From NCBI RefSeq assembly GCF_031458255.1, contig NZ_JAVDYC010000001.1:7302501-7366500 (forward strand): a DNA stretch of 64,000 bases, in the 5' to 3' direction. The notes beneath the pieces were generated by a model. That model saw only the letters and a program-made list of their open reading frames with translations. It did no database searches and was not told the origin of the DNA. The position numbers and the translations under genes are program-made. This DNA comes from Catenuloplanes niger. Its GTDB lineage: Bacteria > Actinomycetota > Actinomycetes > Mycobacteriales > Micromonosporaceae. Shown here in pieces: positions 1 through 12,675 of this stretch (its first letter is position 1; each line of letters opens with the position of its first letter).

Positions 1-1318
<1,318 letters not shown>

Positions 1319-1401
1319 ACACAAACTTTGAAAGTATGCTCGCGTCCACTGTGTGATATCTGAACAAACAACCGTGAAGGTACCCGGTTAAGTTCATAGT
1401 G

Positions 1402-1518
1402 TTACGGCGGTTATAGCGAGAGGGAAACGCCCGGTTACATTCCGAACCCGGAAGCTAAGCCTTTCAGCGCCGATGGTACTGCACTCGGGAGGGTGTGGGA
1501 GAGTAGGACACCGCCGGA
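1402..1518 (+). rRNA. rrf: 5S ribosomal RNA
   Basis: About 117 nt beginning TTACGGCGG and ending CCGCCGGA, so the two ends pair as the 5S helix I. The conserved loop CCGAACCCGGAAGCTAAG and the GAGAGTAGG segment are present. It lies about 85 nt after the 23S rRNA, the usual actinobacterial spacing. End positions are estimated from pairing. Confidence 0.95.
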
Positions 1519-1532
1519 CTTCTTTACAATTG

Positions 1533-1568
1533 AGGGCCACCCTTCCCGGGGCGGCCCTTAGTTGTATT
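1533..1568 (+). terminator. rrn operon terminator
   Basis: AGGGCC (1533-1538) pairs with GGCCCT (1553-1558), with a further CCC/GGG pairing inside, followed by the T-rich tail TTAGTTGTATTT. It lies right after 5S rRNA and is the natural end of the rRNA transcript. Confidence 0.75.
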
Positions 1569-1653: not shown

Positions 1654-4600
1654 GTGAACCCAGGACCGGACGGCGACAACCCGCGTTCCCGGCGGGATGA
1701 CGGCCGCGACGGGCGGGGCCGCGACGACGCGCGCGGCAACCGCGACTCTCGAGGCGGCGACCGCGACTTCCGGGGCGGCGACTCCCGCGGTGGTGACTCC
1801 CGCGGTGGTGATTCCCGCGGCGCCGGCTTCCGCAGCGGCGGCGGTGACCGCGGCTCCAGCGGTGGTGGCTTCCGTTCCGGCGGTGGCGACCGTGACTCGC
1901 GTGGCGGTGGCTTCCGGTCCGGTGGTGACCGTGCCGGCGGCGGCTTCCGCAGTGGCGGCGATCGGGACTCCCGCGGTGGCGGCTTCCGGTCCGGCGGTGG
2001 CGACCGTACCGGCGGCGGGTTCCGTTCGGGCGGCGACCGCGACGGTGGTTTCCGTTCCGGTGGCGACTCCCGCGGTGGCGATTCCCGCGGTGGTGACTCG
2101 CGTGGCGGCGGCTTCCGCAGCGGTGGTGACCGCGGTGCCGCCGGCGGCGGTTTCCGGTCCGGCGGCGGCGACCGTGACTCGCGTGGCGGCGGTTTCCGCA
2201 GTGGCGGCGACCGCGACAGCCGCGGTGGCGGCTTCCGCAGCGGTGGCGGCGACCGTGAGGGCGGCTTCCGCGGCGGTGACTCGCGCGGCGGCGGCTTCCG
2301 GGACCGTGAGGGTCAGGGCGGCGGCTTCCGGTCCGGCGGTGACCGCGACTCCCGTGGCGGTGGCTTCCGGTCCGGCGGCGACTCCCGCGGGGGCGGCTTC
2401 CGCAGTGGCGGCGACCGTGACTCCCGGGGTGGCGGCTTCCGCAGCGGTGGCGACCGGGACGGCCAGGGCGGCGGCTTCCGCAGTGGCGGCGGCGAGCGCA
2501 CCGGCGGCTTCCGGGGTGGCGACCGTGAGGGCGGCTTCCGCGGCGGTGACCGTGACTCGCGCGGCGGTGGCTTCCGTAGCGGCGGCGACCGGGACGGCCA
2601 GAGCGGCGGCTTCCGTGGTGGCGATTCGCGTGGCGGCGGCTTCCGGGACCGTGAGGGTCAGGGCGGCGGCTTCCGTGGCGGCGACTCGCGCGGTGGCGAC
2701 TCGCGTGGCGGTGGTTTCCGGTCCGGCGGCGACCGTGACTCCCGTGGCGGCGGTTTCCGGTCCGGCGGTGACCGTCCGACCGGTGGCTTCCGCGGTGGTG
2801 ACCGTGACTCGCGCGGCGGTGGCTTCCGCAGTGGTGGCGACCGGGACGGCCAGAGCGGTGGTTTCCGCAGCGGCGGAACCCGGGACGGCCAGGGCGGTGG
2901 CTTCCGCAGCGGCGGTGGCGAGCGCACCGGCGGCTTCCGGGGCGGCGACCGTGAGGGCGGCTTCCGGGGTGGCGACCGTGACGGTGGCTTCCGGTCCGGT
3001 GGCGACAACCGCGGTGGCGACTCGCGTGGCGGCGGCTTCCGCAGTGGCGGCGACCGTGACTCGCGCGGTGCCGGGTTCCGGCCCGGCGGCGACCGCGACT
3101 CCCGCGGTGGCGGCTTCCGGTCCGGCGGTGACCGTGAGGGCGGTTTCCGCGGTGGTGACCGTGACTCGCGCGGCGGTGGCTTCCGCAGCGGTGGCGACCG
3201 GGACGGCCAGAGCGGTGGTTTCCGCAGCGGCGGAACCCGGGACGGCCAGGGCGGCGGCTTCCGCAGCGGCGGTGGCGAGCGCACCAGCGGTGGCGAGCGC
3301 ACCGGCGGCTTCCGGGGCGGCGACCGTGAGGGCGGCTTCCGCGGTGGCGACCGTGACTCGCGCGGTGGCGGCTTCCGCGACCGCGAGGGCCAGAGCGGTG
3401 GCTTCCGCGGTGGGGACCGGGACTCGCGTGGTGGCGGTTTCCGGGAGCGTGAGGGCGGTGCCCGCGGCGGTGACTCGCGGGGCGGCTTCCGGGAGCGCGA
3501 AGGCGGCTTCCGTAACGACCGGGGCGGGTTCCGGGAGCGCGAGGGCCAGGGGTTCCGCGGCGGTGAGCGGAGCGACGAGCGCGTCGAGGCGACCCCGGTC
3601 GCGCCCACGATCCCGGACGAGGTCGAGGCGACCGAGCTGGACCGTGACGTACGCGCGGAGCTGCTCTCGCTGAACAAGCCGGTGCAGGAGAGCGTGGCCC
3701 GGCACCTGGTGATGACCGGCCGGCTGATCGACGAGGACCCGGAGCTCGCGCTCGCGCACGCGCTCGCGGCCCGGCGTCTGGCATCCCGGATCGCGGTCGT
3801 GCGGGAGGCCGTGGGGCTCGCCGCGTACCACGCGGGAGAGTGGCAGACCGCGATCGCGGAGATCCGGACGTACCACCGGATGACCGGGAAGCAGTCGCAC
3901 GTGGCCGTGCTGGCGGACTGCGAGCGGGCGCTCGGCCGTCCGGAGCGGGCGATCGACCTGTTCCGGAACACGGACAGCGCGACGCTGCCCAAGGACACCG
4001 CCGTGGAGCTGCTGATCGTGGCCGCCGGCGCGCGTGGTGACATGGGCCAGAACGACGCGGCCGTGTCGATGCTGCAGGTTCGTGAGCTGACCGCGGAGGG
4101 CAAGATCGAGCCGTGGACGGCCCGGTTGCGCTACGCCTACGCGGACGCGCTGCTCAAGACCGACCGCCGCGAGGAGGCCCGGGAGTGGTTCGCCCGCGCC
4201 GCGACCGCCGACGAGGACGCGGTCACCGACGCGGCCGAGCGGCTGCTGGAGCTCGACGGCGTCGAGATCGAGGGCGATGACGAGTCCGGCGAGGACTCCG
4301 CCACGTCCGCCACCTCGGCCGCCGCCGACCGCGACGCGGACGACGACGAGTCGGACGACGACGAGTCGGACGACGACGACGCGGACGACGACGACGCGGA
4401 CGACGACGACGCGGACGACGACGACGCGGACGACGACGACGCGGACGACGACGACGCGGACGACGACGCGGACGACGACGATGACGACGACGACGATGAG
4501 TCCGACGCGGATGACGACGACGAGTCGGACGACGATGACGACGATGAGTCCGACGACGACGATGACGATGAGTCCGACGACGATGACGACGATGACGACG

Positions 4601-4809
4601 ACGAGTCGGATGACGACGATGAGTCGGACGAGGACGAGGACGAGGACGAGGAGCTGACGGGCGCCGGCGCGGAGTCCGAGGCCTCGGAGACCGTTGTGGA
4701 GACGGCTGCGGACGACGAGGACGCGAAGCTGAAGGCCAAGGAGGCGGAGGAGGAGTCCACCTCGCCGCGTGACCTCGGCCCGAAGTTCAACGACGGCAGC
4801 ACCCGCTGA
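1654..4809 (+). CDS. RGG-repeat / TPR-like / polyAsp protein
   Basis: A 1051-residue protein in three parts. Residues ~1-645 are low-complexity repeats of GGFRSGGDRDSRG, GGFRGGD and FRDREGQ type, rich in Gly, Arg, Asp, Ser and Phe, resembling eukaryotic RGG/FRGG RNA-binding tails. Residues ~655-880 form a helical, TPR-like domain, e.g. ALAHALAARRLASRIAVVRE and YADALLKTDRREEAREWFAR. Residues ~890-1010 are almost only Asp with Ala, Ser and Glu, ending in a mixed acidic tail. By position just before the HAD phosphatase and tlyA, the middle domain appears to be the Rv1691-type TPR protein family; the long disordered flanks are the oddity. GTG start with GAAGGA upstream. No signal peptide, so probably cytoplasmic. 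RNA binding and condensate formation are inferences. Long open frames on the opposite strand are composition artefacts. Confidence 0.88.
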   Translation: MNPGPDGDNPRSRRDDGRDGRGRDDARGNRDSRGGDRDFRGGDSRGGDSRGGDSRGAGFRSGGGDRGSSGGGFRSGGGDRDSRGGGFRSGGDRAGGGFRSGGDRDSRGGGFRSGGGDRTGGGFRSGGDRDGGFRSGGDSRGGDSRGGDSRGGGFRSGGDRGAAGGGFRSGGGDRDSRGGGFRSGGDRDSRGGGFRSGGGDREGGFRGGDSRGGGFRDREGQGGGFRSGGDRDSRGGGFRSGGDSRGGGFRSGGDRDSRGGGFRSGGDRDGQGGGFRSGGGERTGGFRGGDREGGFRGGDRDSRGGGFRSGGDRDGQSGGFRGGDSRGGGFRDREGQGGGFRGGDSRGGDSRGGGFRSGGDRDSRGGGFRSGGDRPTGGFRGGDRDSRGGGFRSGGDRDGQSGGFRSGGTRDGQGGGFRSGGGERTGGFRGGDREGGFRGGDRDGGFRSGGDNRGGDSRGGGFRSGGDRDSRGAGFRPGGDRDSRGGGFRSGGDREGGFRGGDRDSRGGGFRSGGDRDGQSGGFRSGGTRDGQGGGFRSGGGERTSGGERTGGFRGGDREGGFRGGDRDSRGGGFRDREGQSGGFRGGDRDSRGGGFREREGGARGGDSRGGFREREGGFRNDRGGFREREGQGFRGGERSDERVEATPVAPTIPDEVEATELDRDVRAELLSLNKPVQESVARHLVMTGRLIDEDPELALAHALAARRLASRIAVVREAVGLAAYHAGEWQTAIAEIRTYHRMTGKQSHVAVLADCERALGRPERAIDLFRNTDSATLPKDTAVELLIVAAGARGDMGQNDAAVSMLQVRELTAEGKIEPWTARLRYAYADALLKTDRREEAREWFARAATADEDAVTDAAERLLELDGVEIEGDDESGEDSATSATSAAADRDADDDESDDDESDDDDADDDDADDDDADDDDADDDDADDDDADDDADDDDDDDDDESDADDDDESDDDDDDESDDDDDDESDDDDDDDDDESDDDDESDEDEDEDEELTGAGAESEASETVVETAADDEDAKLKAKEAEEESTSPRDLGPKFNDGSTR
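4371..4660 (+). repeat. GAC-rich microsatellite encoding polyAsp
   Basis: Near-pure (GAC)n with a 15-bp unit GACGACGACGACGCG repeated in the first third, then GAC/GAT/GAG/TCG mixtures. It keeps frame throughout. Such tracts are prone to slippage in steps of 3 or 15 bp, which would change tail length without shifting the frame. Confidence 0.85.
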
Positions 4810-4887: not shown

Positions 4888-5289
4888 CTACGAGACGGCG
4901 GCGAGCGGGGTGGAGAGTTCCGGAGCGACGTGGTGGACGCAGCCGGCCGGGTTCTGCGAGTCGGCGATGACGGCGTCGAGCCGGTCCCGGGTGGTGATCA
5001 GCTCCTGGATCTGGCGGTCGATGCGGTACCGCTCGGCGCGCAGGATCGCGGCCGACTCCTCGGTCGACTCGTTCGCGTCGACGCACGGCAGCAGCGCCGC
5101 GATGTTCCGGCTGGACAGGCCGGCCGCGTAGAGCTGCTGGATCAGCCGCACCCGCTCGACCGCGGCCTCCGGGTAGTAGCGCTGGCCGCTGGCGCTGCGC
5201 GTCGCGTACAGCAGGCCCTGCTCCTCGTAGTAGCGCAGCGCGCGAACGCTCACGCCGCCGCGGGTGGCCAGGTCGCCGATGCGGATCAT
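4888..5289 (-). CDS. MerR-family transcriptional regulator (copy 1)
   Basis: 133 residues. The N-terminus MIRIGDLATRGGVSVRALRY is the MerR winged helix-turn-helix (about residues 1-70: IGDLA, RALRYYEEQGLL, GQRYYPEAAVERV). It is followed by the dimerisation coiled coil (ILRAERYRIDRQIQELITTR) and a short C-terminal tail with one Cys. There is no large effector-binding domain, so the sensed signal is unknown. The ATG at 5289 has a GGAGGAG-like ribosome site; the frame stays open upstream but codes for nothing recognisable. It is paralogous to the next gene upstream (5412-5801), and both have related inverted repeats before their starts, suggesting cross- or autoregulation. Confidence 0.88.
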   Translation of the reverse strand: MIRIGDLATRGGVSVRALRYYEEQGLLYATRSASGQRYYPEAAVERVRLIQQLYAAGLSSRNIAALLPCVDANESTEESAAILRAERYRIDRQIQELITTRDRLDAVIADSQNPAGCVHHVAPELSTPLAAVS

Positions 5290-5344
5290 GCGGAACTCCT
5301 CCGGGAGCGGAACGGCGGGGGCACCGCCCCCACGAGACATGCCT

Positions 5345-5411: not shown

Positions 5412-5801
5412 CTACTCCCCGGAGGACGGGTAGACCAGGTGGCCGCAGGTGGCCGGCGTCGCGGTGGTGCACGCGACGATCACCTCGCTCAGGCGGTCGC
5501 GGGTGGCGGCCAGCTCCTCGATCTGCCGGTCGATGCGGTCCCGTTCGGTGCGCAGGAGCGTGACCGCCTCGTCGGTGGCCTCCCGGGCGTCGACGCACGG
5601 CAGCAGCACGGTGAGCGAGCGGCTGGACAGCCCGGCCGCGAACAGGCCCTGGATCAGGCCGACCCGGTCGACCGCCGCCTCGGGGTAGAGCCGCTGGCCA
5701 CCACCGGTGCGGGCGGCGGGCAGCAGACCCTGCTCCTCGTAGTAACGCAGCGCGCGGGTGCTCACGCCGGTCCGGGCGGCCAGGTCGCCGATGCGGATCA
5801 T
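5412..5801 (-). CDS. MerR-family transcriptional regulator (copy 2)
   Basis: 129 residues with the same layout as copy 1: MIRIGDLAARTGVSTRALRY helix-turn-helix, GQRLYPEAAVDRV wing, a coiled coil (LLRTERDRIDRQIEELAATR), and a C-terminal tail with two Cys (CTTATPATC). The central motif LLPCVD is shared with copy 1. The start is ATG at 5801. The gene is divergent from the short-chain dehydrogenase at 5906, with the operator-like repeat between them, so it probably regulates that gene and itself. The ligand is unknown; redox or electrophile sensing by the Cys residues is speculation. Confidence 0.88.
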   Translation of the reverse strand: MIRIGDLAARTGVSTRALRYYEEQGLLPAARTGGGQRLYPEAAVDRVGLIQGLFAAGLSSRSLTVLLPCVDAREATDEAVTLLRTERDRIDRQIEELAATRDRLSEVIVACTTATPATCGHLVYPSSGE

Positions 5802-5859: not shown

Positions 5860-5905
5860 GTTTTAGCGTAGCGCCACGGGATTCCCCCGATTGAGGAGCT
5901 ATGCC

Positions 5906-6604
5906 ATGAATCTGAAGAATTCGGTTGCGTTGGTCACCGGCGCGAACCGCGGGCTGGGCCGGCACTTCGCGCAGGAGCTGCTGGCGCGCGGCGCCGCCCG
6001 GGTCTACGCGACCGCGCGCCGGCCGGAGTCGGTCGACCTGCCGGGGGCGACGGTGCTGCGGCTCGACGTCACGGACCGGGCCTCGATCGCGGCCGCGGTG
6101 GACGCGGCGCCGGACGTGACGGTGCTGGTCAACAACGCGGGCAACTCGTCGTTCGCGAACCTGGTGGACGGCGACGAGGCGGAGATCCGGGGGCAGCTGG
6201 ACGCGTTCTTCTGGGGGCCGCTGTGGCTGGTGCGCGCGTTCGCGCCGATCCTGCGGGCGAACGGCGGCGGCGGGATCCTCAACATCAACTCGGCGATGTC
6301 CTGGGTGTCCGGTGACCGGGCGAACGCCTATCACGTCGCGAAGGCCGCGCAGTGGGCGATGACCAACTCGGTGCGTGCCGAGCTGGCCGGTCAGGGCACG
6401 CACGTGGCGGGCGCGTACTTCGGCATGACGGACACCGGGCACCAGGACTTCTGGACCGGGCCGCTGAACGACGCGGCGGAGATCGCCCGGCGCACGCTGG
6501 CCGCGTTCGAGGAGGGCCAGATCGAGATCATTCCGGACGAGCTGGGCGCGGCCGCGAAGGCGATGCTGGCCGGCCCGCCGCAGGCCTACCCCACGGCGGG
6601 CTGA
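5906..6604 (+). CDS. Short-chain dehydrogenase/reductase (SDR)
   Basis: 232 residues of the classical SDR fold. It has the cofactor motif TGANRGLGRHF near residue 12, NNAGN near residue 80, and the catalytic Ser-Tyr-Lys set in INSAMSW...AYHVAKAAQW near 130-150. The acidic/basic pattern after the second strand (TARRPESVDLP) suggests NADP(H). The substrate cannot be told. ATG at 5906 is chosen because GAGGAG lies 7 nt upstream; an in-frame TTG lies at 5891. It is divergent from MerR copy 2 and probably under its control. Confidence 0.85.
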   Translation: MNLKNSVALVTGANRGLGRHFAQELLARGAARVYATARRPESVDLPGATVLRLDVTDRASIAAAVDAAPDVTVLVNNAGNSSFANLVDGDEAEIRGQLDAFFWGPLWLVRAFAPILRANGGGGILNINSAMSWVSGDRANAYHVAKAAQWAMTNSVRAELAGQGTHVAGAYFGMTDTGHQDFWTGPLNDAAEIARRTLAAFEEGQIEIIPDELGAAAKAMLAGPPQAYPTAG

Positions 6605-6660
6605 CCCGCGGGCGCGCCTGGAATGATCGGGGGCGGAACCGCAACGGCCGAGGAGGCAGC

Positions 6661-7485
6661 GTGAGCGATCGTCTGATCGACGGGTACGACCTGGTGATCT
6701 TCGACCTGGACGGGGTGGTCTACCTGATCGACGAGCCGATCCCCGGCGCGGTCGAGGCGATCGCGCGGCTGCACGAGGCGGGGATACCGGTCGCCTACGC
6801 CACGAACAACGCGTCCCGGCGCGCCGCCGACGTGGCCGGGCTGCTCACCGGCATGGGCATCCCGGCCACGCCGGACGAGGTGCTGACCTCGGCCGGCGCG
6901 TCCGCGGCCGTGCTCGCGGAGCGGCTCCCGGCGGGCGCGAGGGTGCTGGTGGTCGGCGCGGACGCACTGCGGGCCGAGATCGAGGCGGTCGGGCTGACCG
7001 TGGTGAGCAAGGCGGAGGACCGGCCGGAAGCGGTCGCGCAGGGCTACGGTCCCGCGGTCGGCTGGGCGGACCTGGCCGAGGCGAGCGTGGCGATCCGGGC
7101 CGGCGCGATGTGGCTGGCCACGAACACGGACAAGACGCTGCCCAGCCCGCGCGGCCCGCTGCCGGGCAACGGCTCGCTGGTCGCGGCGCTGCGGCACGCG
7201 CTCGGCCGGGACCCGGACGTGATCGTCGGCAAGCCCGCGCCCGCGCTGTTCACCACCGCGGCCGAGCGGGTCGGCGCCACGAAGGCGCTGGTCGTCGGCG
7301 ACCGGCTGGACACGGATCTGGAGGGCGCGGTCCGGGCCGGCATGGACGGCCTGCTCGTGCTCACCGGCGTGCACACGGTCGAGGACCTGCGCGCAGCCCC
7401 GGCCGAGCAGCGGGCCACGTTCGTCGCCCCGGACCTGAGCGGCCTCTTCGCACCGGCGGTCAAGGCGGACGACTACAAGGCCTGA
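6661..7485 (+). CDS. HAD-superfamily hydrolase (NagD/Rv1692-like phosphatase)
   Basis: 274 residues. HAD motif I DLDGVVYLIDEPIPGA (nucleophile Asp) is near residue 15, motif II ATNNASRR near 44, and late motifs GKPAPALF and VGDRLDTDLEGA lie near 190-220. The cap region between them is of the NagD/PGP class. The position upstream of tlyA matches Rv1692, a family linked to phosphatase activity on small phosphates such as glycerol phosphate; the exact substrate here is inferred only at family level. GTG start preceded by GAGGAG. It begins the long plus-strand core cluster. Confidence 0.88.
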   Translation: MSDRLIDGYDLVIFDLDGVVYLIDEPIPGAVEAIARLHEAGIPVAYATNNASRRAADVAGLLTGMGIPATPDEVLTSAGASAAVLAERLPAGARVLVVGADALRAEIEAVGLTVVSKAEDRPEAVAQGYGPAVGWADLAEASVAIRAGAMWLATNTDKTLPSPRGPLPGNGSLVAALRHALGRDPDVIVGKPAPALFTTAAERVGATKALVVGDRLDTDLEGAVRAGMDGLLVLTGVHTVEDLRAAPAEQRATFVAPDLSGLFAPAVKADDYKA

Positions 7486-8077: not shown

Positions 8078-8791
8078 ATGCCGAAGGAAGCGTGGCGGGC
8101 CTACCTGGACCTCGCCCTGGGACTGACCGAGAGTTCCCGCAAGCAGGCCACCAAGACCGCGATGAGACTGGTCGGCAAGGGCGGCGCGACCGCGGTCCAG
8201 CTGCAGGCGCTGGTCGAGGACGCGCTGGCGGCCGGCACCGCGAACCGGGCCGTGGTCGAGCGCCTGGTCCGCACCGAGGTCGACCGGGCGCTGACCGTGG
8301 TGGGACTGGCCAAGTCCGATGAGGTCGCGGCGCTGCGGCAGCGCGTCGCCGAGCTGGAGGACCGGCTCGCGGCCCGGCCGGCGGACGTACCCGGTGATCT
8401 GCCCGTCGAACCCGCGGTCGAGGCCGCGGCCGCGGCGTCCGTGGCGGAACCGGCCGCGGCACCGGTGAAGAAGGTCGTCGCGAAGAAGACGGTGGCGAAG
8501 AAGGCGGTCGCGAAGGCTCCGGGCGGCGGCACCGCGGTTCCGGACGCGCTGGCCGCGCCCGCGGTCCCGGCGGCGGACGAGCCGGTCGCCGAGGTGCCGG
8601 CGCCGGCCCGGACGATCACGCCGCCGCGCAAGGCCGCCAAGAAGGTGCCCACGATCAAGGCCGCGCCGCCGGCCGGCCGGAAGGCGGTGCCGACGCCCGC
8701 CGACCTGCCGCCCGCGGTCAAGAAGGCGCCGGCCAAGCGCGCGAAGAAGGTCGTGCCGCCGCTCTTCGACGACGGGACGCCCGGCCGATGA
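8078..8791 (+). CDS. Phasin-like / histone-H1-like helical protein
   Basis: 237 residues. Residues 1-105 are amphipathic helices with a heptad coiled coil (EVAALRQRVAELEDRLAARP), similar to poly(3-hydroxyalkanoate) granule-associated proteins of the PhaF/PhaI type. Residues ~125-237 are a Lys/Ala/Pro/Val tail with KKVVAKKTVAKKAVAK and KKAPAKRAKK motifs, resembling histone H1 or the nucleoid-binding tail of PhaF. No PHA synthase gene is visible in the window, so granule binding is not supported by context. It overlaps the next gene by 4 bp (ATGA), showing translational coupling. Confidence 0.7.
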   Translation: MPKEAWRAYLDLALGLTESSRKQATKTAMRLVGKGGATAVQLQALVEDALAAGTANRAVVERLVRTEVDRALTVVGLAKSDEVAALRQRVAELEDRLAARPADVPGDLPVEPAVEAAAAASVAEPAAAPVKKVVAKKTVAKKAVAKAPGGGTAVPDALAAPAVPAADEPVAEVPAPARTITPPRKAAKKVPTIKAAPPAGRKAVPTPADLPPAVKKAPAKRAKKVVPPLFDDGTPGR

Positions 8792-9073: not shown

Positions 9074-9958
9074 ATGGCACGCCGCATCCGTCTAGACGCC
9101 GAACTCGTCCGCCGCGGCCTGGCCCGCTCCCGCGAGCAGGCCGCCGCGCTCATCGAGGCCGGCCGGGTCGAGGTCCGGGGCGTGGTCGCCCGCAAGGCGG
9201 CCGCGCAGCTCGACCCCGCCGAGCCGATCGTGGTCACCGGCGCGGACCCGGTCGACGAGTACGTGTCCCGCGGCGGGCACAAGCTGGCCGGCGCGCTGGC
9301 CGCGTTCGGGCCCCGCGGCCTGGCGGTGGCCGGGCGGCGGGCGCTGGACGCGGGCGCGTCCACCGGCGGGTTCACCGACTTGCTGCTGCGCGCGGACGTG
9401 GCCGAGGTGGTCGCCGTGGACGTCGGCTACGGCCAGCTCGCCTGGAAACTCCGTACCGACGAGCGGGTGCGGGTCTTCGAACGCACGAACGTGCGGACGC
9501 TCACGCCGGAGGCCATCGGTGGCCCGGTCGACCTGGTCGTGTCCGACCTGTCGTTCATCTCGCTGCGCCTGGTACTGCCCGCGCTGGCCGGCTGCGCGCT
9601 GCCGGACGCCGACCTCGCGCTGATGGTCAAGCCGCAGTTCGAGGTGGGCAAGGAACGGGTCGGCGAGGGCGGCGTGGTGCGCGACCCGGCGCTGCGCGCG
9701 GAGGCGGTCCTGGACGTGTGCGCGGCGGCGCTGGAGCTGGGGCTCGGGCTGGCCGGGGTGGCCGCGAGCCCGCTGCCCGGACCGAGTGGCAACGTCGAGT
9801 TCTTCGTGTGGCTGCGGCGCGGTGCGCCGGCCGCGGACCCGGTCCACGTGCGCGCGGTCGTCGAGGCCGGACCCACGGGTACGGTGGCGGAGCACGCGCC
9901 GGAGCCAGGCGCGGAATCGCTTGTTGACAGGGGAGTGACGAGTGACGAGCACCGCTAA
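9074..9958 (+). CDS. tlyA: TlyA-type rRNA 2'-O-methyltransferase
   Basis: 294 residues. An S4 RNA-binding domain occupies residues 1-60 (RLDAELVRRGLARSREQAAA). The rest is an FtsJ/RrmJ-like methyltransferase: conserved SRGGHKLAGAL, the AdoMet loop LDAGASTGGFTD, VSDLSFISLR, and MVKPQFEVGKERVG. In M. tuberculosis the enzyme 2'-O-methylates 16S C1409 and 23S C1920, which makes ribosomes capreomycin sensitive. An older literature calls TlyA a hemolysin. ATG with weak purine-rich upstream sequence. It overlaps nadK by 17 bp. Confidence 0.93.
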   Translation: MARRIRLDAELVRRGLARSREQAAALIEAGRVEVRGVVARKAAAQLDPAEPIVVTGADPVDEYVSRGGHKLAGALAAFGPRGLAVAGRRALDAGASTGGFTDLLLRADVAEVVAVDVGYGQLAWKLRTDERVRVFERTNVRTLTPEAIGGPVDLVVSDLSFISLRLVLPALAGCALPDADLALMVKPQFEVGKERVGEGGVVRDPALRAEAVLDVCAAALELGLGLAGVAASPLPGPSGNVEFFVWLRRGAPAADPVHVRAVVEAGPTGTVAEHAPEPGAESLVDRGVTSDEHR

Positions 9959-10844
9959 CCGGTCGGCGCTGCTGGTGACCCACACGGGCCGCCGGCACAG
10001 CACGGAGCACGCGGCGTCGATAGCGAACGACCTCGTACGCGCGGGCTTCGAGGTGCGGGTGGTGGCCTCCGAGATCGGCGATCTGGACCTGCCGCCCGGC
10101 GTGACGCCGGTGTTCGGACCGTCCGCGGCCGAGGGCGTGGAGATCGTGTTCGCGCTCGGCGGGGACGGCACGTTCCTGCGCGCGGCCGAGCTGGCCCGGC
10201 CGAACAAGGCGCCGCTGCTCGGCATCAACCTCGGCAAGGTGGGCTTCCTGGCCGAGGCCGAGATCAGCGACATCGACCAGGCCGTGGCGGACGTGGTGCG
10301 CGGTGCCTACACCGTGGACGAGCGGCTCACGCTGGACGTCAAGGCCGAGCTGGACGGTGAGCTGATCGCGGAGAGCTGGGCGCTCAACGAGGTCACGGTG
10401 GAGAAGGGCCAGCGGGCGCAGATGCTGGAGCTGCGCGTGGACGTGGACGGCCGGCCGCTGTCCCGGTACGGCTGCGACGGCGTGGTCTGCGCGACCCCGA
10501 CCGGCTCCACCGCGTACGCGTTCTCGGCCGGCGGCCCGGTGGTCTGGCCCGAGGTGGAGGCGCTGCTGCTGGTGCCGGTCGCCGCGCACGCGCTGTTCAG
10601 CAAGCCGCTCGTCACCGCGCCCACGTCGACGTTCGTGATCACGGTGGATCCGTACACGTCGGTCGCCACGCTCTGCGCGGACGGGCACCGCGTCTTCGAC
10701 CTGCCGCCGGGTGCGAAGGTCACTGTCCGGCGCGGCGCGCAACCGGTGCGTGTGGTTCAGCTGACGCCGCGGCCGTTCACCGATCGGCTGGTGGCGAAAT
10801 TCGACCTCCCGGTTCTCGGCTGGCGGGGTACGAAGCGGCGGTAA
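9942..10844 (+). CDS. nadK: NAD kinase
   Basis: 300 residues, the usual bacterial length. It shows the catalytic GGDGTFLRAAELA near residue 73, NLGKVGFLAEAE, the NE motif in WALNEVTVEK, and the substrate loop TPTGSTAYAFSAGG. It phosphorylates NAD to NADP using ATP or polyphosphate in the cytoplasm. The GTG start lies inside the end of tlyA, so the two are translationally coupled. Confidence 0.95.
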   Translation: MTSTANRSALLVTHTGRRHSTEHAASIANDLVRAGFEVRVVASEIGDLDLPPGVTPVFGPSAAEGVEIVFALGGDGTFLRAAELARPNKAPLLGINLGKVGFLAEAEISDIDQAVADVVRGAYTVDERLTLDVKAELDGELIAESWALNEVTVEKGQRAQMLELRVDVDGRPLSRYGCDGVVCATPTGSTAYAFSAGGPVVWPEVEALLLVPVAAHALFSKPLVTAPTSTFVITVDPYTSVATLCADGHRVFDLPPGAKVTVRRGAQPVRVVQLTPRPFTDRLVAKFDLPVLGWRGTKRR

Positions 10845-10917
10845 TCACGGTCTTCTCCGCAATTGGCGCACCGCTCGGCTGGAAATGTGTCAGAGGACGC
10901 GGCTACTGTCTTTGCCT

Positions 10918-12675
10918 GTGCTGGAAGAGCTGCGTATCACCGGCCTGGGCGTCATCGAGGACACCACACTGCCGCTGACCGGCGGCATGAACGTGATAAC
11001 CGGTGAGACCGGCGCCGGGAAGACCATGGTCGTGACCGGCCTCGGCCTGCTGTTCGGCGGGCGGGCCGATGCCGGTCGCGTGCGATCCGACCCGGGCCGC
11101 GCGGTCGTCGAGGGACGGTTGCGCCTGAAGGGCGCGATCGCCGACGCCGTGCTGGCCCGGATCACCGACGCGGGAGCGGAGGCGGACGACGACGGTGCGG
11201 TCATGCTGTCGCGCACCGTCACGATCGAGGGCCGCTCCCGGGCCCACGTCGGCGGCCGGTCCGCGCCGGTCGCCGTGCTCACCGACGTCGGTGAGCGGGT
11301 GCTGGCCGTGCACGGCCAGTCCGACCAGCTGCGCCTGCTGCGGCCGGCGGAGCAGCGCGCCGCGCTCGACCGGTTCGCCGGGCCCGAGCACGAGAAGCTG
11401 CTGGAGACGTTCCGGGAGACGTTCACGAAGTGGCGGCGGACCGCGGACGACCTCGCGGACCGGCGCCGCAACGCGCGCGACCGCAACCAGGAGGCGGACC
11501 TCCTCAAGCTCGGGCTGGACGAGATCACCCGCGTCGACCCGCAGCCGGGGGAGGACGACGAGCTGAAGGCGGAGGCGCAGCGCCTCGAGCACGCGGAGGG
11601 GCTGCGGACCGCGGCCGCGATCGCCTACCAGTCGGTGGCCGGCGGGTCCGAGGCCGCCGACGAGACGCCGGACGCGACCAGCCTGCTCGGCACCGCGCGC
11701 CGCACGCTGGAGGGGCAGGCCGCCGTCGACGCGAAGCTCGGCGACCTCGCGGCCCGCATCGAGGAGGCGGCCACGCTGGTCGCGGACGTCACCGCGGAGC
11801 TCTCGTCGTACCTGGACGCGCTGGACGCGGACCCGAACCGGCTGGCCGCCATCTACGAGCGGCGGGCGCTGCTGCGCGGGCTCACCCGGAAGTACGCGGA
11901 CGACATCGACGGTGTGATCGCCTGGGCGGAGACCGCGCGGACCCGGCTCGGCGAGCTCGACACGTCGGACGAACTGCTCGAGGAGCTGGAGAAGGAGCGC
12001 CAGCGGCTCGAGGCGGAGGTCGCGGAGCAGGCGGCCCGACTCACCGCGGCCCGGACCGAGGCGGCGGGCCGGTTCGCCGAGGAGGTCAGCGTCGAGCTGG
12101 CCGGGCTGGCGATGCCGCACGCGCGGGTCGAGGTGGCGGTGCTGCCGCGGAGCGCGGGAAAGAGCGAGCCGTCGGTGACCGTGGACGGCACCGAGGTCGG
12201 CGTGACCGCGGACGGCGCGGACGAGGTCGAGCTGCGCCTGCTGGCCCACCCGGGCGCACCGGCGCTGCCGCTGCAGCGCGGGGCGTCCGGCGGTGAGCTG
12301 TCCCGGGTGATGCTGGCGATCGAGGTGGTGTTCGCCGGGGCCGGTGGCCCGCCGACGCTGGTCTTCGACGAGGTCGACTCCGGCGTGGGCGGCACCGCGG
12401 CGGTGGAGATCGGGCGGCGGCTGGCCCGGCTGGCGCGCAGCCACCAGGTGCTGGTGGTGACGCACCTGCCGCAGGTGGCCGCGTTCGCGGACCGGCACCT
12501 GGTGGTGGCGAAGGACACCGGGGGCGCGGTGACGACCAGCGGGGTGCGGGTGGTGGAGGACACCGACCGGGCCCGGGAACTGTCCCGGATGCTAGCCGGC
12601 CTGCCCGACTCGGACCTGGGCATCGCGCACGCGGAGGAGCTGCTGGCGGTCGCCGACCGGGAGAAGCGCCGCTGA
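10918..12675 (+). CDS. recN: DNA repair protein RecN
   Basis: About 585 residues. Walker A GETGAGKT lies near residue 30, the central part is a long coiled coil (ERQRLEAEVAEQAARLTAAR), and the C-terminal ATPase half has the signature GASGGELSRVMLAIE and Walker B TLVFDEVDSGVGG. It is an SMC-like ATPase for double-strand-break repair. The GTG at 10918 (VLEELRITG) gives the family N-terminus; an in-frame ATG at 10885 would add 11 non-conserved residues. It is the last gene before the repeat array at 12.7-13.1 kb. Confidence 0.93.
   Translation: MLEELRITGLGVIEDTTLPLTGGMNVITGETGAGKTMVVTGLGLLFGGRADAGRVRSDPGRAVVEGRLRLKGAIADAVLARITDAGAEADDDGAVMLSRTVTIEGRSRAHVGGRSAPVAVLTDVGERVLAVHGQSDQLRLLRPAEQRAALDRFAGPEHEKLLETFRETFTKWRRTADDLADRRRNARDRNQEADLLKLGLDEITRVDPQPGEDDELKAEAQRLEHAEGLRTAAAIAYQSVAGGSEAADETPDATSLLGTARRTLEGQAAVDAKLGDLAARIEEAATLVADVTAELSSYLDALDADPNRLAAIYERRALLRGLTRKYADDIDGVIAWAETARTRLGELDTSDELLEELEKERQRLEAEVAEQAARLTAARTEAAGRFAEEVSVELAGLAMPHARVEVAVLPRSAGKSEPSVTVDGTEVGVTADGADEVELRLLAHPGAPALPLQRGASGGELSRVMLAIEVVFAGAGGPPTLVFDEVDSGVGGTAAVEIGRRLARLARSHQVLVVTHLPQVAAFADRHLVVAKDTGGAVTTSGVRVVEDTDRARELSRMLAGLPDSDLGIAHAEELLAVADREKRR

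Follow-up and report, generated by a model that had tools for sequence, protein, structure and literature searches.

The window analysed here is a stretch of 64,000 nucleotides (nt) of Catenuloplanes niger, a member of the Micromonosporaceae (NCBI RefSeq assembly GCF_031458255.1, contig NZ_JAVDYC010000001.1, positions 7,302,501 to 7,366,500, forward strand), which opens within the 23S gene of an rRNA operon (rrn). Directly behind the 5S gene and in the same direction, as a cistron reached by read-through would be, lies an open reading frame (ORF) of 1051 codons for a protein that carries a basic, RGG-rich N-terminal flank and an acidic C-terminal tail on a TPR core (Table 1). This combination beside rRNA genes had been described in a first-pass annotation made from the sequence alone, and composition, Pfam and Rfam agree with it. 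The observation is confirmed and proved larger than first stated, since an Arg-tailed TPR protein is tied to the rRNA operon across much of the phylum.

Table 1. Location of the features discussed, in nt from the first letter of the window
Feature	Position	Strand	Basis and remarks
23S rRNA, 3' part	1..1320	+	Rfam RF02541
5S rRNA	1403..1519	+	Rfam RF00001, 95 bits
Strong hairpin between 5S and gene, without U-tract	1525..1566	+	within fold of 1520-1665
Whole gene (RGG flank, TPR core, acidic tail)	1654..4809	+	ORF, translation; 1051 residues
N-terminal flank, FRSGG/FRGG/DSRGG-type repeats, net charge +33	1654..3585	+	644 residues; composition and codon-position test
TPR core, residues 651-874	3604..4275	+	
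C-terminal flank, 177 residues, net charge -103	4276..4806	+	composition; densest block 4333-4653 (77/107 Asp)
Two adjacent MerR-type ORFs	5412-5801 (Pfam); about 4888-5290 (by eye only)	-	
SDR gene between TPR gene and HAD	5891-6604		
HAD phosphatase domain, Rv1692-type	6652..7485	+	Pfam; 5' boundary approximate
Phasin-like ORF just before TlyA	8078-8791	+	Pfam match below curated cut-off
TlyA-type S4/FtsJ methyltransferase, NAD kinase, RecN	9074..12675	+	Pfam; order common to many loci

The gene behind the rRNA operon

The N-terminal flank (residues 1-644) contains 257 G, 134 R, 81 D, 65 S and 50 F, with 43 RGG motifs and a median spacing from Phe to Phe of 12 residues, and thus shows the clustered RGG/RG motifs with aromatic residues that define RGG/RG proteins. 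It shares RGG repeats, interspersed Phe and low complexity with the tails of eukaryotic proteins such as nucleolin and fibrillarin, whereas the bacterial protein has many Asp between its repeats and a TPR core in place of an RRM or methyltransferase domain; no homology is claimed. At the other end, the roughly 110 residues of "almost pure Asp" of the first-pass annotation correspond to an acidic block of 107 residues (894-1000), whose purity had been slightly overstated (77 D, 13 E, 9 A and 8 S). Pfam returned TPR-type matches only and NCBIfam weak matches to TPR-containing families, with no specific model for the protein.

An assembly artefact was considered as the source of the repeats and is unlikely. 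The host genome is one contig of 9.74 Mb, where core and repeat tail each match only once, and proteins built in the same way are found in many other assemblies. Among the relatives' named loci, the best core identity was to Catenuloplanes japonicus (88%). Within the repeats, all 955 of 955 pairs of 36-nt windows with at least 75% identity lie in the same reading frame (the windows overlap, hence the pairs are not independent), and the mismatches per codon position amount to 0.11, 0.12 and 0.34. Repeats that stay in frame and drift at the third position indicate that it is the protein sequence that looks selected, and not a frame-free DNA repeat.

Translation would begin at a GTG codon preceded by a AGGAAGGA-type Shine-Dalgarno (SD) sequence. 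A mini-frame of four codons (ATG-TAC-TCG-TGA, 1646-1657) overlaps this start and recurs in 13 of 14 family relatives compared by eye, the exception (L078) having its ATG in frame; since the SD spacing suits the GTG, the mini-frame probably arises as a side effect of the conserved SD spacer.

The start codon stands 87 nt downstream of the hairpin that the first-pass annotation had taken for the rrn terminator. The distance given there was right, but the hairpin lacks a U-tract and a consensus scan of 1320-1720 detected 0 terminators and 0 promoters. The fold of 1520-1665 that includes the hairpin has -70.2 kcal/mol (z -3.35), and a hairpin after the 5S is visible by eye in the family spacers compared. 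We examined 57 Micromonosporaceae loci with a visible 5S end, the host genome included, and recognised SD and start by pattern in 49, with the start codon at a median of 85 nt after the 5S and of 39 nt (range 20-95) past the base of the best-scoring stem; fewer than five T were present in the 8 nt after the stem in 51 of the 57. A short spacer behind a hairpin mostly without U-tract leaves little space for a promoter of its own, which makes it plausible that the gene is read through from the rRNA operon in Micromonosporaceae. The host genome contains five full matches to the 23S-5S end, and the TPR core is found only behind the copy in the window.

Linkage to rRNA genes and the downstream cluster

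The position behind an rRNA operon is no local coincidence, and we regard this linkage as a stronger finding than the distribution of the flanks. For the phylum we chose 80 loci with a core match from 79 mostly complete genomes spread over genera, 69 of them from the class (21 families) and 11 from eight families outside it. In 66 of the 80, no more than 500 nt separate the first possible start from a 5S gene upstream; the median is 100 nt, a value that includes nine loci whose frame is open into the 5S. The other 14 comprise seven with the 5S farther away (0.6 to 4.9 kb), four without 5S and three at a contig end; Rfam detected no rRNA in the fetched stretches of the four. Further upstream, tyrS was present in 23 of 40 stretches that cover about 5.5-15 kb upstream of the core, two of these matches having only 32-34% identity; masking affected part of the sequence in 8 of the 40. 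Mycobacterial rrnB is described, in the relevant part of one paper, as placed behind tyrS and present only in some species (PMC10218544), and in one genome (G181) of the family designated f8, which we infer to be the mycobacterial one, the locus likewise has rrn directly upstream and tyrS beyond.

Genome G490 carries two copies of the gene (L255 and L256), whose distance from the preceding 5S is 66 nt in both cases and whose flanks agree in composition. Upstream of one copy lies tyrS, and downstream of the other the HAD-TlyA cluster, an arrangement that would fit a duplication of the rrn-TPR unit. In a control with 26 rrn copies from eight genomes, the seven copies with the TPR gene gave 4 pairs with genes in common between genomes, and the 19 without it gave 2. 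This control is weak, because its flanks of about 1.5 kb often end short of the core, the TPR copy of G519 is absent and L322 is almost without flank; the run excluded 5S.

Downstream of the gene follow two MerR-type ORFs, the SDR gene, the HAD phosphatase, an ORF without Pfam match, the phasin-like ORF and the genes for TlyA, NAD kinase and RecN. The order TPR-HAD-TlyA-NadK-RecN is thus kept with insertions in the window and is compact in many loci; the HAD gene, the usual downstream neighbour, which is adjacent or fused elsewhere, is separated here by the MerR-type ORFs and the SDR gene. In Mycobacterium tuberculosis the corresponding genes lprJ-Rv1691-Rv1692-Rv1693-tlyA-ppnK-recN are treated, where the cited source deals with them, as one operon (PMC3072309). 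The match between the window cluster and this lprJ-recN unit assigns the core to the Rv1691 type, in agreement with the first-pass annotation; the assignment is supported by synteny and literature. The f8 genomes share with the window both a homologous core, by profile match, and the HAD-TlyA-NadK-RecN order.

This cluster is the basis of the main rival explanation, namely that the rRNA neighbourhood is merely inherited gene order and that the TPR protein serves the HAD/TlyA/NAD kinase/RecN genes, for instance by scaffolding or regulating the HAD phosphatase, with no special link to rRNA. A HAD match starts at most 200 nt from the TPR stop codon in 36 of the 80 loci, several of which have ends that overlap, TPR and HAD form a single fused frame in two loci of different families (L126 of G023, L222 of G409), and the published operon as well as the 14 loci in which no linkage to rrn is seen point in the same direction. 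Against it, the rrn-TPR pair stays in place in 35 of the 66 rrn-adjacent loci in which no HAD match lies within 200 nt, three genomes (G489, G507 and G973) keep the order TPR-TlyA-NadK-RecN without a HAD match, and the near-constant Arg-rich flank is left unexplained. With no HAD match close by in many loci where the rrn-TPR pair remains, and tyrS seen in only part of the upstream stretches, the pair outlives its neighbours. We consequently read the linkage as a constraint, with common descent of gene order as a real alternative, and regard the service to the downstream cluster as rather unlikely. No description of an rrn-TPR linkage was found in the open full-text PMC literature (subscription papers lay outside this scope).

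Core and tails in the relatives

The core is present in 143 of 150 genomes of the family, 336 of 348 of the order and 315 of 345 of the class, mostly as a single copy, and in 100 of 246 genomes sampled over the phylum, 21 of the 100 being from the class. It shows the tandem helix-turn-helix repeats of a TPR superhelix, a fold that is predicted with confidence. Over 80 cores, R62, R67, E68, Y75, D105, R108, E135, D146 and R174 are 95-100% conserved and lie in or next to the first helices of consecutive repeats; R92 is conserved to the same degree and belongs to a second helix. The first helices of TPR repeats line the groove. A fold comparison gave generic TPR matches only, with tied Z values and no functional lead, and a profile search of solved structures returned designed or consensus TPRs only. 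Generic TPR superhelices such as the Rap/NprR sensors, LGN, TTC0263 and YrrB share 11-18% identity with the core, with many families tied, so that no function could be assigned from them.

The comparison of flank lengths across Micromonosporaceae that the first-pass annotation had proposed was carried out on the best 80 of 244 relatives in public genomes, 69 of which have a measurable N-terminal flank; eleven loci (L006, L012, L014, L016, L020, L024, L027, L040, L067, L073 and L081) were left out as short, contig-cut, gapped or frame-broken. All 69 flanks have at least 20% G, at least 15% R and a net positive charge, and the 33 free of contig-end cuts have a median length of 553 residues (range 280-731). 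Asp and Glu make up at least 25% of the C-terminal tail in 79 of the 80 loci, the exception being L056 with 1% as read. In eight loci of the family (L006, L014, L020, L027, L040, L081, L128 and L129) the N-terminal flank appeared odd or absent. In seven of these, RG-rich sequence lies upstream, broken by runs of N or by frame breaks; L128 has just a short stretch, rich in Gly and poorer in Arg, which lies in a different frame close to the contig start.

N-terminal flank lengths were counted from the first possible start after a stop and are thus upper bounds. In the phylum sample, at least 15% Arg was found in 78 of 79 N-terminal flanks of at least 30 residues (29 other families), and 78 of 79 are net positive. 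A C-terminal tail of at least 25 residues is present in 40 of the 80 loci, and 38 of those 40 tails are clearly acidic. On a conserved core, the length of the Arg-rich tail spans about 40 to over 700 residues, with or without an acidic tail. The f8 relatives differ most plainly from the Catenuloplanes protein: eight of nine loci have N-terminal flanks of 42-95 residues with at most seven RG/RGG counts, and two of the nine, one of them a HAD fusion, have a C-terminal tail of at least 25 residues. An Arg-rich flank is retained even in the 1.3-1.4 Mb genomes G489 and G507.

On a tree of 98 cores, the acidic tail changes 15 times by parsimony, and 16 shifts occur between long and short N-terminal flanks. 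Acidic tail and long flank are correlated (Spearman 0.53, 78 loci); the tree-based pair test gave a median p of 0.25, and co-evolution is not claimed. The Arg-rich flank is an old, near-constant part of the family, and the acidic tail a part gained and lost repeatedly. The view of the flanks as a lineage elaboration consequently applies to the acidic tail, the flank length and the repeat unit, and fails for the Arg-rich flank as such.

It could be argued that the long flanks are passive low-complexity expansions, born of repeat slippage in a GC-rich genome, and that the TPR core alone does the work. The turnover of repeat number, repeat unit and tail length on the tree and the short flanks of most f8 loci would fit such an origin. 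The concentration of repeat mismatches at third codon positions would not, nor would the persistence of the flank in the two small genomes, nor the constancy of composition and charge sign while the repeat unit itself differs among genera (for example FRGGDRREGG and GGYQGGGDRGG). We consider passive expansion improbable.

A candidate factor for rRNA synthesis or ribosome assembly

Taken together, the best-supported reading is a role with rRNA: the gene product may be a conserved actinobacterial accessory factor that binds RNA, assists in rRNA synthesis or ribosome assembly, and whose production keeps pace with that of rRNA, a proposal drawn from sequence comparison to which we give a probability of about 40%. 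It is favoured by the linkage in most phylum loci, by a pair that outlives its neighbours and by the place of both G490 copies behind rrn. The near-constant, positively charged Arg-rich flank, with its kept repeat composition and its in-frame third-position drift, argues for it too, and so do the short spacer, the groove-side position of the conserved residues and the presence of TlyA in the cluster. TlyA is an rRNA methyltransferase. MSMEG_3754, the M. smegmatis orthologue of Rv1691, is also named on the high-confidence list of an affinity purification of RNA polymerase beta (PMC7092591). Beyond this, Rv1691 occurs in one table row, there given without a function (PMC11754781), and no other specific functional information on the protein was found in the open full-text PMC literature.

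Several observations weigh against this role. In the purification study, MSMEG_3754 showed no DNA association (PMC7092591), and its entry in a table of the ClpC1 interactome (PMC10433963) raises the possibility of a common pull-down contaminant. RGG/RG RNA-binding proteins often, although not obligatorily, also carry RRM, KH or helicase domains; Pfam and NCBIfam scans of the protein found neither such a companion nor any other RNA-binding domain beyond the RG tail. The charge of the acidic tail exceeds that of the basic flank in the Catenuloplanes protein (-103 and +33), so that RNA binding would be opposed unless the acidic tail is displaced. Seven of the eight spacers without recognised SD and start belong to more divergent genera, hence the short spacer is established chiefly for close genera, and U-tracts follow the hairpin in some spacers outside Micromonosporaceae, where read-through would be limited. 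Finally, a linkage not seen in 14 of the 80 loci is not obligatory; it changes nine times on the core tree by parsimony (rows so labelled), two f8 loci (L219 and L223) retain the gene without rRNA in the fetched stretch, and inherited gene order without function could account for it.

If the protein does act with rRNA, at least part of the transcription of its gene would be read-through from the rRNA operon, as suggested by a hairpin mostly without U-tract and a start codon only tens of nt beyond it, and protein supply would track rRNA supply. The disordered Arg/Gly/Phe tail may bind nascent rRNA through many weak contacts, and a partner protein, whether RNA polymerase, a ribosomal protein or an assembly factor, may sit in the TPR groove and be brought by it to the transcript. 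Where an Asp tail is present, this tail and RNA might compete for the Arg tail, which would limit trapping or aggregation. The tails of several hundred residues in Micromonosporaceae could take this as far as condensates, a step that the model does not require.

That the protein is in the first place a nucleolus-like condensate scaffold, with its RGG flank and Asp tail undergoing phase separation together with rRNA at the operon, is improbable. A composition resembling eukaryotic RGG tails, the recurrence of Phe at about every 12th residue, blocks of opposite charge in one chain, the linkage to rRNA genes and the discussion, in a published article, of bacterial RNA polymerase clusters in fast growth as nucleolus analogues (PMC9312465) would suit it. 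Several families, however, have only a short flank, and a C-terminal tail of at least 25 residues is missing from half of the 80 phylum loci, which makes condensates unlikely as the ancestral function. A fuller scheme joins both ideas. Across Actinomycetota the protein would be the effective last cistron of one rRNA operon, its basic tail coating nascent rRNA and its TPR groove recruiting RNA polymerase or assembly factors, and in Micromonosporaceae it would have developed into a nucleolus-like scaffold that regulates itself, its dose being set by the same rRNA that it organises; in this full form we think the scheme improbable.

The natural series of tail lengths on one core, with and without an acidic tail, is well suited for testing the roles of such tails in bacteria. 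A gene that stands behind an rRNA operon through much of the phylum, and for which Pfam and NCBIfam hold no specific model, is a strong lead by association to an unknown factor of ribosome biogenesis or rRNA transcription. Our comparison suggests that actinobacteria possess a previously undescribed protein working with ribosomal RNA.

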